Positions 36,959-43,673 of a stretch of 64,000 nt of DNA are shown piece by piece. The notes beneath the pieces were generated by a model. That model had not been told where the DNA came from. It saw only the letters and a program-made list of their open reading frames with translations, and did not search any database. The stretch is from Piscirickettsiaceae bacterium. Its GTDB lineage: Bacteria; Pseudomonadota; Gammaproteobacteria; Nitrosococcales; Methylophagaceae. The stretch is from contig JABSQO010000001.1 of NCBI GenBank assembly GCA_013215775.1, positions 1-64,000 of the forward strand, given 5' to 3'. Within the stretch, counting starts at the first letter, position 1, and each line of letters starts with the position of its first letter. The translations under genes and the position numbers were made by a program.

Positions 36959-37585
36959 ATGACTATGACCATATTATTGCCGACGATTATTAATGCCATA
37001 CAAAATACGATTGATGAAAATTCAACTGAAGTAACTGAATTAGATAAAGCCATTGGTGATGGTGATCATGTGGTGAATTTACAACGAGGCTTAGATGCCT
37101 TATCACAAATCAGTGACGAATTAAGTTCGATGACATGGTCTGCTGCTTTTATGAAAATAGGTATGACTTTAATGTCCACTATGGGAGGCGCTTCAGGCTC
37201 TCTATTCGGCTCGATGTTTATTAGCATGGCTAAGGCGGCTAAAGATAAAGAACTTAATGCTATCTCCTTTGCAGAAATATTTAATCAGGGTATCGAATCC
37301 GTTAAACAGCGTGGCAAATCTGATATCGGCGAAAAGACCATGTTAGATACTTTGATTCCTGTTGCAAATAGTCTACAAACCGATGTGGCAAACAATATTG
37401 ATTACCATCAAATGCTCGAAAACATTGTTCGGCAAGCCATTAAAGGAATGGAATCAACTAAAGAATTGATCGCCACCAAAGGTCGCGCTTCTTTTCTTGG
37501 AGAACGTGCTATTGGCCATATTGATCCTGGAGCTAGGACTAGTCAACTTATGATTTGTGCTGTTGTTGCTGTTTTAAAACAATAA
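36959..37585 (+). CDS. dhaL: dihydroxyacetone kinase subunit DhaL-like
   Basis: LDKAIGDGDHVVNLQRG, TMGGASGSLFGSMF, HIDPGARTSQLM. Confidence 0.9.
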   Translation: MTMTILLPTIINAIQNTIDENSTEVTELDKAIGDGDHVVNLQRGLDALSQISDELSSMTWSAAFMKIGMTLMSTMGGASGSLFGSMFISMAKAAKDKELNAISFAEIFNQGIESVKQRGKSDIGEKTMLDTLIPVANSLQTDVANNIDYHQMLENIVRQAIKGMESTKELIATKGRASFLGERAIGHIDPGARTSQLMICAVVAVLKQ

Positions 37586-37614
37586 ATTCACCACAAAGTC
37601 ACAGAAGATAATCA

Positions 37615-37641
37615 GTCATTCCCGCGAAAGCGGGAATCCAT
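37615..37641. repeat. dRS3-like hairpin gtcattcccgcgaaagcgggaatcca
   Basis: cccgc/gcggg-type hairpin; inverted partner at 37967-37994. Confidence 0.8.
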
Positions 37642-37646
37642 TGATA

Positions 37647-37937
37647 TCAACATATACTTTGATATAAGTCTCTCCAATTAACATTTTCTTTTTCAATCAA
37701 TTCGGTTTTCCATTGTCGTCGCCATTTTTTTAATTTCTTTTCACGCGAGATGGCCGATGCCATTTCCTGATGAAGTTCATACCAAACTAGATTATGCACG
37801 TGATATTTCTGGCTAAAACCTCCGAATACATTATTCTTGTGTTCCCATATACGCTTAATCAAATTTGATGTTACACCGATATAGAGTGTGCCATTCCTTT
37901 TGCTGGCCAAGATATAAACACAGGGTTGTTTCTCCAT
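37647..37937 (-). CDS. GIY-YIG nuclease family protein
   Basis: CVYILASKRNGTLYIGVTSNLIKRIWEHKN. Confidence 0.95.
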   Translation of the reverse strand: MEKQPCVYILASKRNGTLYIGVTSNLIKRIWEHKNNVFGGFSQKYHVHNLVWYELHQEMASAISREKKLKKWRRQWKTELIEKENVNWRDLYQSIC

Positions 37938-37966
37938 AACGCTCCTTGAATATGTGTTTCTGCTTC

Positions 37967-37994
37967 ATAGATTCCGTGATTGACACGGAATGAC
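37967..37994. repeat. inverted partner repeat atagattccgtgattgacacggaatgac
   Basis: Reverse complement gtcattccgtgtcaatcacggaatctat. Confidence 0.75.
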
Positions 37995-38025
37995 GAAATA
38001 TCCTTTGTAGAAACTTCCAATACAA

Positions 38026-39015
38026 TCAACAACCCCAACGTAAATTAGCGGTATGCACTGGCGCATCCCATAATTCAATAAATTCATCATCGAGCAGAGT
38101 CAAAGTAATAGATGCACCCGCCATCTCTAGTGATGTGGTGTAATTACCCACTAATGACCGTACTACTGCCACACCACGATCTTGCCAATATTGGGCGGCT
38201 AAATCATACATTAAATATAACTCCATTAATGGTGTGCCACCAAAGCCATTAATATGTAGTAATACTCTTTGCCCAGACTGTGGTTTTAAGTCTTCGTCAA
38301 TGGCTGTTGTTAAATGCTTAACAATATCACTGGCACTCGTTAATTCCATCGGTTCACGACCACGTTCTCCGTGTATTCCCACACCCATTTCGATTTCATT
38401 ATCGCCAATATCAAATGTAGGAGACCCTATTGCAGGAACAGTACAGCTCGTCAGTGCGACCCCCATGGAAGCGGTTGCATTATTGACTCGGTCACCTAAA
38501 GCTTTGCACTCAGCTAAACTTGCGCCAGCCTCTGCAGCTGCACCCACTATCTTTTCAACAATAAGTGTCCCCGCTACACCACGGCGACCAGTGCTGTGAT
38601 CTTTTGGTAATGAAACATCATCACTGACCAGTACTGTTTCATGTTCACAATCCAACATTTCTGCAGCAATTTCAAAATTCATCACATCACCAGCATAGTT
38701 CTTAACTATAAATAAAACTCCGCCACCTGTTTCAACAGCTTCAACTGCGGCCATCATTTGATCCGGTGTAGGGGATGTGAAGATTTGACCTGGGCATGCG
38801 GCATCTAACATGCCTTTTCCGACTAATCCTGTGTGCAAAGGCTCATGACCAGAACCTCCGCCTGACACTAGTACCACTTTGCCGGGGGCAGAATTTTGTT
38901 TCCGATTGATAAAATGAGGCGTTAAATTAAATTGGATAATGTCATCATGCGCTTTGGCAAAACCTGTCAGACTTTCTTCTAATAAGCTTTCAACACCATT
39001 CATTATCTTCTTCAT
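38026..39015 (-). CDS. dhaK: dihydroxyacetone kinase subunit DhaK-like
   Basis: VVLVSGGGSGHEPLHTGLVGKGMLDAACPGQIFTSPTPDQM, MGVGIHGERG, ELWDAPVHTANLRWGC. Confidence 0.93.
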   Translation of the reverse strand: MKKIMNGVESLLEESLTGFAKAHDDIIQFNLTPHFINRKQNSAPGKVVLVSGGGSGHEPLHTGLVGKGMLDAACPGQIFTSPTPDQMMAAVEAVETGGGVLFIVKNYAGDVMNFEIAAEMLDCEHETVLVSDDVSLPKDHSTGRRGVAGTLIVEKIVGAAAEAGASLAECKALGDRVNNATASMGVALTSCTVPAIGSPTFDIGDNEIEMGVGIHGERGREPMELTSASDIVKHLTTAIDEDLKPQSGQRVLLHINGFGGTPLMELYLMYDLAAQYWQDRGVAVVRSLVGNYTTSLEMAGASITLTLLDDEFIELWDAPVHTANLRWGC

Positions 39016-39033
39016 TTTGAACTCTCCAGCTAT

Positions 39034-39867
39034 TTATAAATTCTTTAAGGTTTGGCTAATTTCTTGAATATCCGCCATTATCCATGTTGGCTCATAATCC
39101 ACATCTGCAATATCTTGCTCTGACGACACACCCGTTAATACTAAAATACTGCGAATACCAGCATTCACAGCGCCCAAAATATCAGTGTCTAAGCGATCAC
39201 CTATGGCAATGATGTTATTGGGTTCTATCGCTAATATTTCTAAAGCCTGTTGATAAAGAATGGGTTGTGGTTTACCTATACATGTCGGCTTAACGCCCGT
39301 CGCCGCTTCAAGTGCAGCAATGGTACCGCCATTCCCCATCACTTCACCCAATTCTGTTGGCAACGTTGTATCGGCATTAGTTGCAAAAAATTGCGCACCC
39401 GCCCTAATATTAAGCGTGGCTGTTGCCAATTTATCCCACGTTAATTGTCTATCAAGACCTGAAACAACAATATCGGCACCTTGGTCAGTAATTGCCTTGT
39501 CTGGCTGATTAACTTGATACAGATCCGTTAAGATAAAACCCTGTTCAATAAGTGGTTGTCGAAGGCCATCTTCACCAATCACAAAGACACGGCGTTTATC
39601 TGCCGGCAGATGTTTCTTAAGATAACTTGCCGTCGCCATGCTCGAGGTAAGAATCTCTTCTAAAGACACATCAACATCCATTTTAGCTAATTTGTCAACA
39701 TACTGCTGCTGAGTCAAACTAGCATTATTAGTCGCTAAAACAAAAGGAATATTGGCTATTCTCAATGTTGAAAAAAAGTCTACTATGCCATCGACCGGGT
39801 CATTGCCATGCCACAGCACACCATCCATATCGATAATTAATCCACCAACATTCTCTATAATTTCCAT
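39034..39867 (-). CDS. HAD-IIA family hydrolase (NagD/phosphoglycolate phosphatase-like)
   Basis: GLIIDMDGVLWHGNDPVDG, VLATNNAS, IAIGDRLDTDILGAVNAGIRSILVLTG. Confidence 0.92.
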   Translation of the reverse strand: MEIIENVGGLIIDMDGVLWHGNDPVDGIVDFFSTLRIANIPFVLATNNASLTQQQYVDKLAKMDVDVSLEEILTSSMATASYLKKHLPADKRRVFVIGEDGLRQPLIEQGFILTDLYQVNQPDKAITDQGADIVVSGLDRQLTWDKLATATLNIRAGAQFFATNADTTLPTELGEVMGNGGTIAALEAATGVKPTCIGKPQPILYQQALEILAIEPNNIIAIGDRLDTDILGAVNAGIRSILVLTGVSSEQDIADVDYEPTWIMADIQEISQTLKNL

Positions 39868-40074: not shown

Positions 40075-40716
40075 ATGGCAAAAGCACTTATTCAAATGGC
40101 TCTAGACTCTCTAGATTTCGACGCGACAATGGCACTTGCTGAGCAAGTAGCACCTTATGTTGACATCTTAGAGATTGGTACACCTTGTATCAAATATAAC
40201 GGTTTAGAACTTGTTACAGCATTAAAAGCAAAATTCCCAGAAAAATTAATCCTAGTTGATCTTAAAACTATGGATGCTGGTGAATATGAATCAACTCCAT
40301 TCTACGAAGCAGGTGGTGACATCTGTACTGTTCTTGGTGCTTCTGATAAAGCAACAATGGGTGGTGTTATCAAAGCCGCTAATGCTAACAATGCTGAAGC
40401 TCAAATTGACTTAATCAGCGTTAAAGATAAAGCAAAATGTGCAACTGAAGCAGCTGCAAATGGCGCTCAAATCATCGGTGTTCACACTGGTCTTGATGCT
40501 CAAGCAGCAGGTCAAACACCTTTTGCTGATTTAAAACTGATTGCTGACTTGAACCTTGGCGTTCGTATTTCAGTTGCCGGTGGTATCAACAAAGATACGA
40601 TCCAAGGCACAGTTCAAGCTGGCGCAACAATCGTTGTTGTTGGTGCTGCAATCTACGGTGCAGATTCTCCAGCTGATTCAGCTAAAGAATTGCGTGCACT
40701 AGTTGACGCAGCATAA
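40075..40716 (+). CDS. hps: 3-hexulose-6-phosphate synthase
   Basis: MALDSLDFDATMALAEQVAPYVDILEIGTPCIKYNGLELVTALKAKFPEKLILVDLKTMDAGEYE. Confidence 0.96.
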   Translation: MAKALIQMALDSLDFDATMALAEQVAPYVDILEIGTPCIKYNGLELVTALKAKFPEKLILVDLKTMDAGEYESTPFYEAGGDICTVLGASDKATMGGVIKAANANNAEAQIDLISVKDKAKCATEAAANGAQIIGVHTGLDAQAAGQTPFADLKLIADLNLGVRISVAGGINKDTIQGTVQAGATIVVVGAAIYGADSPADSAKELRALVDAA

Positions 40717-40740: not shown

Positions 40741-40762
40741 TGAGCAGCCAACATGGCTGCTC
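40741..40762 (+). terminator. hairpin terminator after hps1
   Basis: tgagcagccaacatggctgctcattt. Confidence 0.6.
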
Positions 40763-40888: not shown

Positions 40889-41164
40889 ATGAGTAAAAAA
40901 GGTTTATTTGCTTCAATCTGCAGCTTTTTCAGCGGTTTGTGTTCATCTTCATCCACCAGCACTTCATCGGATAACGATGGTTTGACAGGGGTTGAACGTT
41001 ACATCCGTAACCAAGCTACTACAGCATCAACATCTACTGGTGTTGAAAACTATATTCAAAACCAAGCAAGTACAACACCAACTGGCGTTGAACAATATAT
41101 CCAAAATCAAGCTAATGCTGCACAGCTTACAAGTGTTGAGAGATATATCCGCAAGCAAGGCTAA
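40889..41164 (+). CDS. 91 aa protein with four tandem T[GS]VExYIx[NK]Q motifs
   Basis: TGVERYIRNQA..TGVENYIQNQA..TGVEQYIQNQA..TSVERYIRKQ after an amphipathic N-terminus and Ser/Thr linker. Confidence 0.85.
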   Translation: MSKKGLFASICSFFSGLCSSSSTSTSSDNDGLTGVERYIRNQATTASTSTGVENYIQNQASTTPTGVEQYIQNQANAAQLTSVERYIRKQG

Positions 41165-41334: not shown

Positions 41335-42318
41335 ATGGCAAATTTACTTGACCAACTTAAAAGTATGACCGTTGTTGTTGCCGACACAGGTAACATCGCT
41401 GCTATTGAGCAATTTACACCTCGTGATGCAACAACAAACCCATCTTTGATTACAGCTGCATCACAAATGCCAGAATATCAAAGCATTGTTGACGACACAT
41501 TAAAAGGCGCACGCGAAACAGTCGGTGCTGATGCTGATGCATCTGAAGTGGTTACGCTTGCTTTTGACCGTCTGGCCGTATCATTCGGTTTAAAAATTCT
41601 TGAAATAGTTCCTAAACGTGTTTCAACAGAAGTTGATGCTCGTTTATCTTATGATACCGATGCAACTATTGCTAAAGGTCGCGACCTTATTGCTCAATAC
41701 GAAGCAGCTGGCGTATCACGTGAACGCATCCTAATTAAAATTGCAGCAACTTGGGAAGGTGTTCAAGCGGCTAAAGTACTTGAACAAGAAGGCATTCACT
41801 GTAACCTAACATTGGTATTTGGTCTTCACCAAGCAATCGCTTGTGCTGAAAATGGCATTACACTCATTTCACCTTTCGTGGGCCGTATCCTAGACTGGTA
41901 CAAAAAAGACACTGGTCGTGATTCTTACCCAGCAGATGAAGATCCTGGTGTTGTATCGGTTACTGAAATCTACAATTACTATAAAAAATTCGGTTATAAC
42001 ACTGAAGTGATGGGCGCAAGCTTCCGTAACTTAGGTGAAATCACTGAGTTAGCAGGTGTTGATCTACTCACCATTGCACCAGCATTACTTGATCAGTTGC
42101 AATCAACTGAAGGCGACTTACCACAAAAATTAAATGCTGATAATGCCGCTTCAATGGATATTGCTAAAATCGATATGGACAAAGCAATGTTTGAAAAAAT
42201 GCATGCCGCAGATCCAATGGCTACTGAAAAACTAGCTGAAGGTATTGATGGTTTTGCAAAAGCACTAGAAGTGCTTGAAGAATTACTTGCCAATCGTCTA
42301 GCAGAAATTGAAGCTTAA
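41335..42318 (+). CDS. tal: transaldolase
   Basis: [61 protein letters not shown]. Confidence 0.97.
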
Positions 42319-42492: not shown

Positions 42493-43128
42493 ATGGCACA
42501 AATCCAAATGGCTCTAGATTCTCTAGATTTCGACGCAACAATGGCTTTAGCAGAAGCAGTTGCACCATACGTGGACATCTTAGAAATTGGTACACCTTGT
42601 ATCAAATATAATGGCCTTAAACTTGTTAAAGCTTTAAAAGCTGCTCACCCTGACAAAACAATCTTAGTTGATCTTAAAACTATGGATGCAGGTGAGTATG
42701 AATCAACACCTTTCTTTGAAGCTGGTGGTAGCATCTGTACCGTATTAGGCGCAGCTGATACTGCTACCGTCAATGGTGTTATTACAGCGGCCAATGCAAA
42801 CGGTGCTGAATGTCAAGTTGACTTAATCGGTGTTGAAGATAAAGCTGCTGTTGCTAAAGAAGCGGCTGCAAACGGCGCACAAATCATCGGTGTTCACACT
42901 GGTCTTGATGCACAAGCTGCAGGTCAAACACCTTTTGCTGATTTAGCGATGATCGCTGGTCTTGGCTTAGATGTTAAAATCTCAGTTGCTGGTGGTATCA
43001 ACAAAGATACAATCCAAGGCACAGTTCAAGCTGGTGCTGCAATTGTTGTTGTTGGTGCAGCTATCTACGGTGCAGATTCTCCAGCTGATTCAGCTAAAGA
43101 ATTACGTGCTTTAGTTGACGCAGCATAA
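42493..43128 (+). CDS. hps: 3-hexulose-6-phosphate synthase, second copy
   Basis: Highly similar to the 40075-40716 product; followed directly by hpi. Confidence 0.96.
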   Translation: MAQIQMALDSLDFDATMALAEAVAPYVDILEIGTPCIKYNGLKLVKALKAAHPDKTILVDLKTMDAGEYESTPFFEAGGSICTVLGAADTATVNGVITAANANGAECQVDLIGVEDKAAVAKEAAANGAQIIGVHTGLDAQAAGQTPFADLAMIAGLGLDVKISVAGGINKDTIQGTVQAGAAIVVVGAAIYGADSPADSAKELRALVDAA

Positions 43129-43139
43129 GGAATATTACA

Positions 43140-43673
43140 ATGCATCGTGATCTACTCTTAAATAAAATTACTACTATCCTTGGTTCTACTGATGATTCAT
43201 TGGAGGCTACTTTAGTTTCAATGTGTGATGATGCTAAACGCATCTTTATTACAGGTGCAGGTCGCTCAAAACTGGTTGGTAACTTCCTAGGGATGAGATT
43301 GATGCATAGTGGTTATGAAATATTTGTTCAAGGTGAAATCAGCACACCAAGCATCCGCGAAGGCGATTTATTAATCGTTATCTCTGGTTCTGGTGAAACG
43401 ACTCAACTTGTTTCATTTACTAATAAAGCCAAATCTGAGGGCGCTAAAGTGGTTTTGATTTGTTCAAAATCTAGCTCAACGATTGGTGATTTAGCTGACC
43501 AAACAATTCAAGTCGGTGCCGATGATAGTTTTGCTCCTACAAAGGGCATGCCTATGGGTACTATGTTTGAATTATCAACACTCATCTTCTTAGAAGCAAT
43601 GGTGTCTCATCTAATCCATGAGCGCGGTATTGCTGAAGAAGAAATGAGAGCGCGTCACGCTAATATGGAATAA
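43140..43673 (+). CDS. hpi: 6-phospho-3-hexuloisomerase
   Basis: SIS domain: KRIFITGAGRSKLVGNFLGMRLMHSGYEIFVQGEISTPSIREGDLLIVISGSGETTQ. Confidence 0.96.
   Translation: MHRDLLLNKITTILGSTDDSLEATLVSMCDDAKRIFITGAGRSKLVGNFLGMRLMHSGYEIFVQGEISTPSIREGDLLIVISGSGETTQLVSFTNKAKSEGAKVVLICSKSSSTIGDLADQTIQVGADDSFAPTKGMPMGTMFELSTLIFLEAMVSHLIHERGIAEEEMRARHANME

Follow-up and report, generated by a model that had tools for sequence, protein, structure and literature searches.

The array gene and its neighbourhood

In the window, the whole stretch of 64,000 nucleotides that was analysed, a 91-aa open reading frame (ORF) with an ATG start was found on the forward strand at 40889..41164. It encodes a protein with a hydrophobic N-terminus, a Ser/Thr linker and four ten-residue motifs predicted to be helical. 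Upstream lies hps1, encoding 3-hexulose-6-phosphate synthase (40075..40716, forward strand; TIGR03128, 242 bits, cut-off 200), and downstream lies tal, encoding transaldolase (41335..42318, forward strand; TIGR00874, 479 bits). Further along the same strand are hps2, encoding a second 3-hexulose-6-phosphate synthase (42493..43128; TIGR03128, 240 bits), and hpi, encoding 6-phospho-3-hexuloisomerase (43140..43673; TIGR03127, 191 bits, cut-off 160). The identities that an earlier, sequence-only reading of this DNA had given to these four neighbours were borne out by the model matches.

The genes around the ORF were RuMP, DHA kinase and leuC genes. The dihydroxyacetone kinase subunit genes dhaL (36959..37585, forward strand; TIGR02365) and dhaK (38026..39015, reverse strand; TIGR02363) are conserved neighbours, and the gene for an HAD-IIA phosphatase (39034..39867, reverse strand; TIGR01460) is kept in the cluster and is also found in methanotroph RuMP clusters. 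In Methylophaga this dhaK/dhaL and phosphatase segment (36959-39867 in the window) is a conserved neighbour of the RuMP genes, and in methanotroph clusters it is so at least in part. By eye, AGGGG is a plausible Shine-Dalgarno sequence 9 nt 5' of the ATG of the ORF. A promoter and terminator scan around the ORF gave scores not above those of shuffles. A hairpin 3' of hps1 (40742-40762) was noticed by eye and was not flagged in that scan.

The sequence-only reading had described four near-identical motifs in this ORF, and all four were confirmed on the forward strand: TGVERYIRNQ (40985..41014), TGVENYIQNQ (41036..41065), TGVEQYIQNQ (41081..41110) and, close to the C-terminus, TSVERYIRKQ (41129..41158). 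The spacing of 15-17 aa that it gave was correct as a figure, when measured from start to start. Between the repeats of the ORF, 12% of sites differed at codon position 1, 13% at position 2 and 55% at position 3, so that third positions were 4-5 times more variable than positions 1 and 2. The same comparison of 112 repeats from 23 homologues gave 18, 19 and 56%. This excess at third positions indicates that the amino acids and not the DNA are conserved, and that the protein sequence is under selection. Furthermore, exact DNA matches to T-x-x-V-E-x-Y-I in the host genome (2.2 Mb) numbered eight, versus none for the reversed control, which places these repeats beyond chance. Four of the eight were in the 91-aa ORF, three in the linker of ChpA and one in a prophage protein.

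Motif, N-terminus and predicted structure

The small proteins of this kind and the methanotroph arrays described below share the motif [TS][GS]Vx[KR]Y[ILVM]xxQ, in which V (99-100%) and Y (97-99%) are nearly invariant. T or S occupies position 1, R or K predominates at position 5, I, L, V or M stands at position 7, and Q is the commonest residue at position 10. AlphaFold, run on the family alignment, modelled one helix at the N-terminus and one per motif (residues 34-45, 51-60, 66-76 and 82-90 for motifs 1 to 4) and no global fold, with a mean pLDDT of 63.5 and a pTM of 0.22. The model is thus suggestive of separate helices on a flexible string, like beads. The motif may be read as a short N-capped helix whose V/Y/I face docks in a groove.

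The N-terminal segment MSKKGLFASICSFFSGLCSS (40889..40948, forward strand) is a putative membrane-associating helix. It is conserved in the alignment (consensus MSEKGFFASICxFFKGLFSS in the small proteins) and hydrophobic, and was modelled as a helix at residues 4-18 with low confidence; this conservation does not extend to the linker that precedes the array. The sequence-only reading had called the N-terminus KGLFASICSFFSGLCSS amphipathic. A conserved short hydrophobic segment is indeed present, but its amphipathicity is only modest (hydrophobic moment about 0.3).

Small homologues adjoin hps and tal

Among 59 relatives, 30 had matches to the 91-aa protein; these represent four genera of a single family. 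When 85,488 species genomes were scanned, 45 relatives were returned, all from Methylophaga, Piscirickettsiaceae or other proteobacterial MAGs; two were of ChpA size and 43 were small array proteins, the latter found only in the Methylophaga-type genomes of marine methylotrophs. These small homologues are 65 to 204 aa long and carry 2 to 8 motifs. Both hps and tal lie within 1.5 kb of every one of them (43/43), and the RuMP-cluster neighbours of the gene are kept across the four genera. The sequence-only reading had set in advance that homologues lying mostly away from RuMP genes would count against it, and the opposite was observed.

We define the RuMP-linked motif-array family as proteins with at least two [TS][GS]VxxY[ILVM]xxQ-type motifs 13-26 aa apart and a membrane-associating N-terminal segment, encoded beside hps, hpi, tkt, tal or fba. 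The 91-aa protein has four such motifs at a spacing of 15-17 and is encoded between hps1 and tal, and its 43 small homologues likewise lie beside hps and tal.

Arrays in RuMP clusters beyond Methylophaga

On one contig of a Methylophaga bin (L065; G028:C210), two membrane-anchored proteins with SGVxKYL motifs are encoded beside methanotroph-like tal and fba genes; this contig is probably contamination of the bin. A motif-array profile (A2) was then applied to 387 gammaproteobacterial genomes and matched in six, which were the identical six in which the HxlA model TIGR03128 scored above its cut-off (Fisher 2e-13, phylogeny ignored). Two of the six, G294 and G177, are outside Methylophagaceae. 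The order of G294 was taken, from gene content, as the methanotroph order Methylococcales, and among 121 genomes of that order arrays were found in 77 and HxlA in 94 (again ignoring phylogeny). The only array-positive, HxlA-negative genome, G542, has an hpi-tkt-array-tal-fba cluster interrupted by a contig end (L231). In G542, a gene for a 513-aa protein with 21 motifs also stands at a contig start (L230:481-2019), so that the genes upstream of it fall outside the contig; it is followed by one for a haem-oxygenase-like protein (PF14518). This survey of methanotroph-type arrays covered the gammaproteobacterial draw and the order of G294.

Linkage was close in the methanotroph order as well. Among the 71 array loci listed, 61 share a contig with an hps match, and 58 of these 61 are less than 10 kb from hps (median 3.9 kb), the other three being about 700 bp or less from a contig end. 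Of 45 exact DNA-pattern matches to [TSPA]GVxKY[LF] in six methanotroph genomes, 42 were inside array loci, indicating that use of the motif elsewhere is rare in those genomes. When the search was extended to E 10, array matches in methanotroph genomes were found only at RuMP loci, except for one protein of G294, the contig-start array of G542 and weak, chance-level matches. In G294 itself (L155:2199-16717), hps-hpi-tkt-array occurs twice in tandem, each copy ending in a 458-aa array protein, and is followed by hps-hpi-tkt, an array with a transmembrane (TM) helix, tal and fba. The arrays were copied with the duplicated hps-hpi-tkt units, and thus multiply alongside the pathway genes.

Several HxlA-positive, array-negative genomes have hps apart from other RuMP genes (L239-L242, L248), and in one genome counted as array-negative (G501) an array had been overlooked. 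G485 has tkt, tal, hps and hpi in a genuine RuMP cluster without an array, and clusters of this type show that the array is not essential for RuMP. In G442, array matches were found (E 6e-12), yet its hps-hpi locus (L245; G442:C8) is without an array, as are its congeners. The array and the RuMP cluster may have passed together from one order to another. The lineages may therefore not be independent, and such a transfer as a unit would itself signal functional linkage.

In the methanotroph-containing order, 2-21 motif copies are carried on different membrane anchors, and three architectures can be distinguished across the family. The first, the small form, has a short hydrophobic N-terminus and 2-8 motifs. 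The second starts with a predicted signal peptide, followed in most cases by two [YF]PA[AT][DN]FxPxV segments, then by a TM helix and, as a rule, by four motifs, of which the last is C-terminal; the signal peptide and TM helix were read from the sequence and not by a predictor program. Proteins of the third, 250-513 aa long, have a short anchor at the N-terminus and contain 8-21 motifs. If the usual topology rules hold, the arrays of the second architecture would lie in the cytoplasm, where the RuMP enzymes reside. The membrane tether put forward in the sequence-only reading is accordingly retained as a predicted association, through the signal peptide and TM helix or the short hydrophobic N-terminus of the relatives.

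Comparison with known families and systems

The 91-aa ORF had no credible match in Pfam, NCBIfam or PHROGs, and the methanotroph array proteins had none in Pfam or NCBIfam; in both cases the weak matches were to low-complexity or TM segments. A search of PDB by sequence gave no match up to E=10. No relative of the array protein was found among viral contigs and phages, nor in a plasmid search with the L065 protein. The earlier statement that no family could be recognised thus stands. In the open-access literature searched, no description of the motif, of these proteins or of a natural RuMP scaffold was found. The class of array proteins is previously undescribed; the principle of a multivalent motif scaffold is known, whereas the protein family and the pathway are new, and the scaffold function is one that we infer.

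The sequence-only reading had compared the ORF with EPYC1 and CsoS2, and the likeness stands on paper as one of working principle but not as membership in either family, since there is no sequence relation and the pathway is different. EPYC1, the Rubisco linker of Chlamydomonas, is similarly disordered with a few regularly spaced short helical motifs, and multivalent binding of an enzyme is proposed here as well. EPYC1 is, however, a eukaryotic protein of the pyrenoid with longer repeats and another motif. The 91-aa protein has no sequence relation to it (no Pfam or PDB match), and its neighbours are RuMP genes and not Rubisco. CsoS2, of alpha-carboxysome assembly, is a bacterial repeat protein encoded beside the enzyme that it organises, with short helical N-repeats that bind Rubisco. 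It differs from the 91-aa protein in repeat, size and pathway; the latter matched no Pfam or NCBIfam repeat family, and carboxysome shell genes were absent from the part of the window examined. The encapsulation or targeting peptides of bacterial compartments recruit enzymes through the docking of a short amphipathic helix. Such a peptide is present once, on the cargo enzyme itself, whereas the motif described here is repeated in tandem on an anchored protein of its own; RuMP enzymes encoded at the loci examined, unlike such cargo enzymes, are without the motif. Among 253 Hps-matching ORFs (with redundancy between loci), no fusion of the motif to a RuMP enzyme was found, only one chance match. 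A comparison of Hps next to arrays with Hps away from arrays gave five scattered differing positions and no clear docking surface.

A proposed scaffold or tether for RuMP enzymes

Several features are consistent with a membrane-bound tether or scaffold of the RuMP enzymes: close linkage to the pathway genes, multivalent arrays, exchangeable anchors and duplication together with hps-hpi-tkt. We propose, with a probability of roughly 0.55, that the 91-aa ORF represents, in its smallest form, a class of multivalent short-linear-motif proteins that associate with the membrane and serve the RuMP cycle as a scaffold or tether at the cytoplasmic face. Each motif [TS][GS]V[EA]xY[ILVM]xxQ would form a short helix with T/S as N-cap, one face of V, Y and I/L and an otherwise polar or basic surface, and these helices would be strung on flexible Ala/Ser/Thr linkers. 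The array would be fixed to the inner membrane on its cytoplasmic side. In the small form the hydrophobic N-terminal helix would do this, and in methanotrophs either a short N-terminal anchor or the combination of signal peptide and TM helix. Through several of its motifs, the array would dock in a groove of an oligomeric RuMP enzyme. Hps or Hps-Hpi would be the most plausible partner and, less specifically, Tal, Tkt or Fba. As a single candidate Hps ranks first, since it flanks the array in most of the layouts seen, among them a locus with hps and tkt only (L236). The formaldehyde-fixing enzymes would thereby be clustered at the membrane, near periplasmic methanol oxidation, and the presumed benefit would be low formaldehyde or high flux.

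The motif outside RuMP clusters and alternative explanations

In many Methylophagaceae the same motif array, in 2-10 copies, is carried by the linker of ChpA before its Hpt domain. The ChpA-type kinase of the host (~1848 aa; G000:C1, about 71.6-71.9 kb; L068, L158:3431-8971), encoded outside the window, has three motif copies in this linker. ChpA/PilL, of the pil-chp system, resembles the 91-aa protein in this array, but it is a large kinase of several domains (Hpt, HATPase, CheW and receiver), none of which the 91-aa protein has. In G294, a 298-aa protein encoded outside the RuMP cluster (L229:5481-6374) has four motifs and a Cys-rich C-terminus (CHATTSRGKRC...CPQH); no homologues of it were found elsewhere in the class draw. 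A prophage protein of the host (G000:C23:108867-108980; L070:1387-1863, L157), matching phrog_916 and encoded next to the major capsid gene, has one perfect motif, RTGVEKYIQKM, which may be chance, as a looser pattern was estimated from codon counts at about one match per genome.

The ChpA arrays and the G294 protein imply that the reader of the motif may be something other than a RuMP enzyme: it could be an adaptor of more general use, or else both proteins are brought to the RuMP assembly. The interpretation given in the sequence-only reading is supported in part: the linkage to RuMP was upheld, in 43 of 43 small homologues and by arrays on unrelated anchors in a second order, and the ChpA array shows that the motif is not used in RuMP clusters alone. 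The motif might be a general docking motif for one non-RuMP cytoplasmic or membrane adaptor, such as a localisation factor, with the RuMP arrays and ChpA as its clients and the RuMP array positioning, or competing for, the adaptor. The consensus shared with ChpA just before the Hpt domain and the four-motif protein of G294 would both follow from this explanation. We consider it unlikely, given that arrays track HxlA across genomes and that methanotroph matches, even to E 10, are almost only at RuMP loci.

The repeats could also be amphipathic helices that bind to membranes, coating or shaping the inner or intracytoplasmic membrane without an enzyme as partner. The helices are short, the proteins are anchored and the largest arrays occur in the methanotroph order, members of which build intracytoplasmic membranes. 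The hydrophobic face, however, consists only of V, Y and I/L, and the near-invariant V/Y together with the fixed helix N-cap argue for a specific groove rather than generic lipid binding. Furthermore, the array is also present inside the soluble multidomain ChpA, and Methylophaga keeps the array protein although, to our knowledge, it has no intracytoplasmic membranes. This explanation appears improbable. An equally improbable role is that of a small regulatory or stress protein, for example in formaldehyde sensing or enzyme inhibition, whose repeats alter the activity of one RuMP enzyme and not its location. Tethering or clustering would explain the recurrence of membrane anchors and the presence of up to 21 motifs better than simple inhibition does, even though the 91-aa protein is small, has its own gene between hps1 and tal, and could match an oligomeric enzyme through its multivalency.

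Mimicry of the FtsZ C-terminal peptide (in the host DYLDIPAFLRRQAD), recruiting ZipA, FtsA, MinC or SlmA, is very unlikely, because the ungapped pairing of IPAFLRRQA with VERYIRNQA shares its hydrophobic spacing and R.QA but the motif has Tyr and not Phe (F at most 3%), FtsZ lacks the T/S-G or T/S-S cap, and the motif is tied to RuMP genes. The motif also departs from the pattern [DE][IV]PxFLR[RK]Q (host tail LDIPAFLRRQAD), with no Pro among the position-4 residues listed and Y in 97-100% at position 6.

Implications for RuMP methylotrophs

Returning to the scaffold or tether, a wider and more tentative reading is that gammaproteobacterial RuMP methylotrophs and methanotrophs may fix formaldehyde in a membrane-attached assembly, built with one short-motif code on several unrelated anchors, copied with hps-hpi-tkt operons and shared with ChpA in Methylophaga, possibly coupling C1 metabolism to surface behaviour. 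In biochemical work on Methylococcus, hexulose phosphate synthase was reportedly found in the particulate fraction, and an anchored array is a candidate explanation for this. Because the motif is closely tied to one pathway and is missing from the family libraries and literature searched, it deserves a name even if its function proves different.

Artificial assemblies of RuMP enzymes are already in use for synthetic methylotrophy (Price et al. 2016, listed among the references of PMC8879981). If the proposal is true, the array would be a natural part for such work. RuMP bacteria would then own a scaffold that is like the Rubisco linkers in logic and serves enzymes that fix toxic formaldehyde, and the array would give a handle on the cytoplasmic capture of formaldehyde made in the periplasm.
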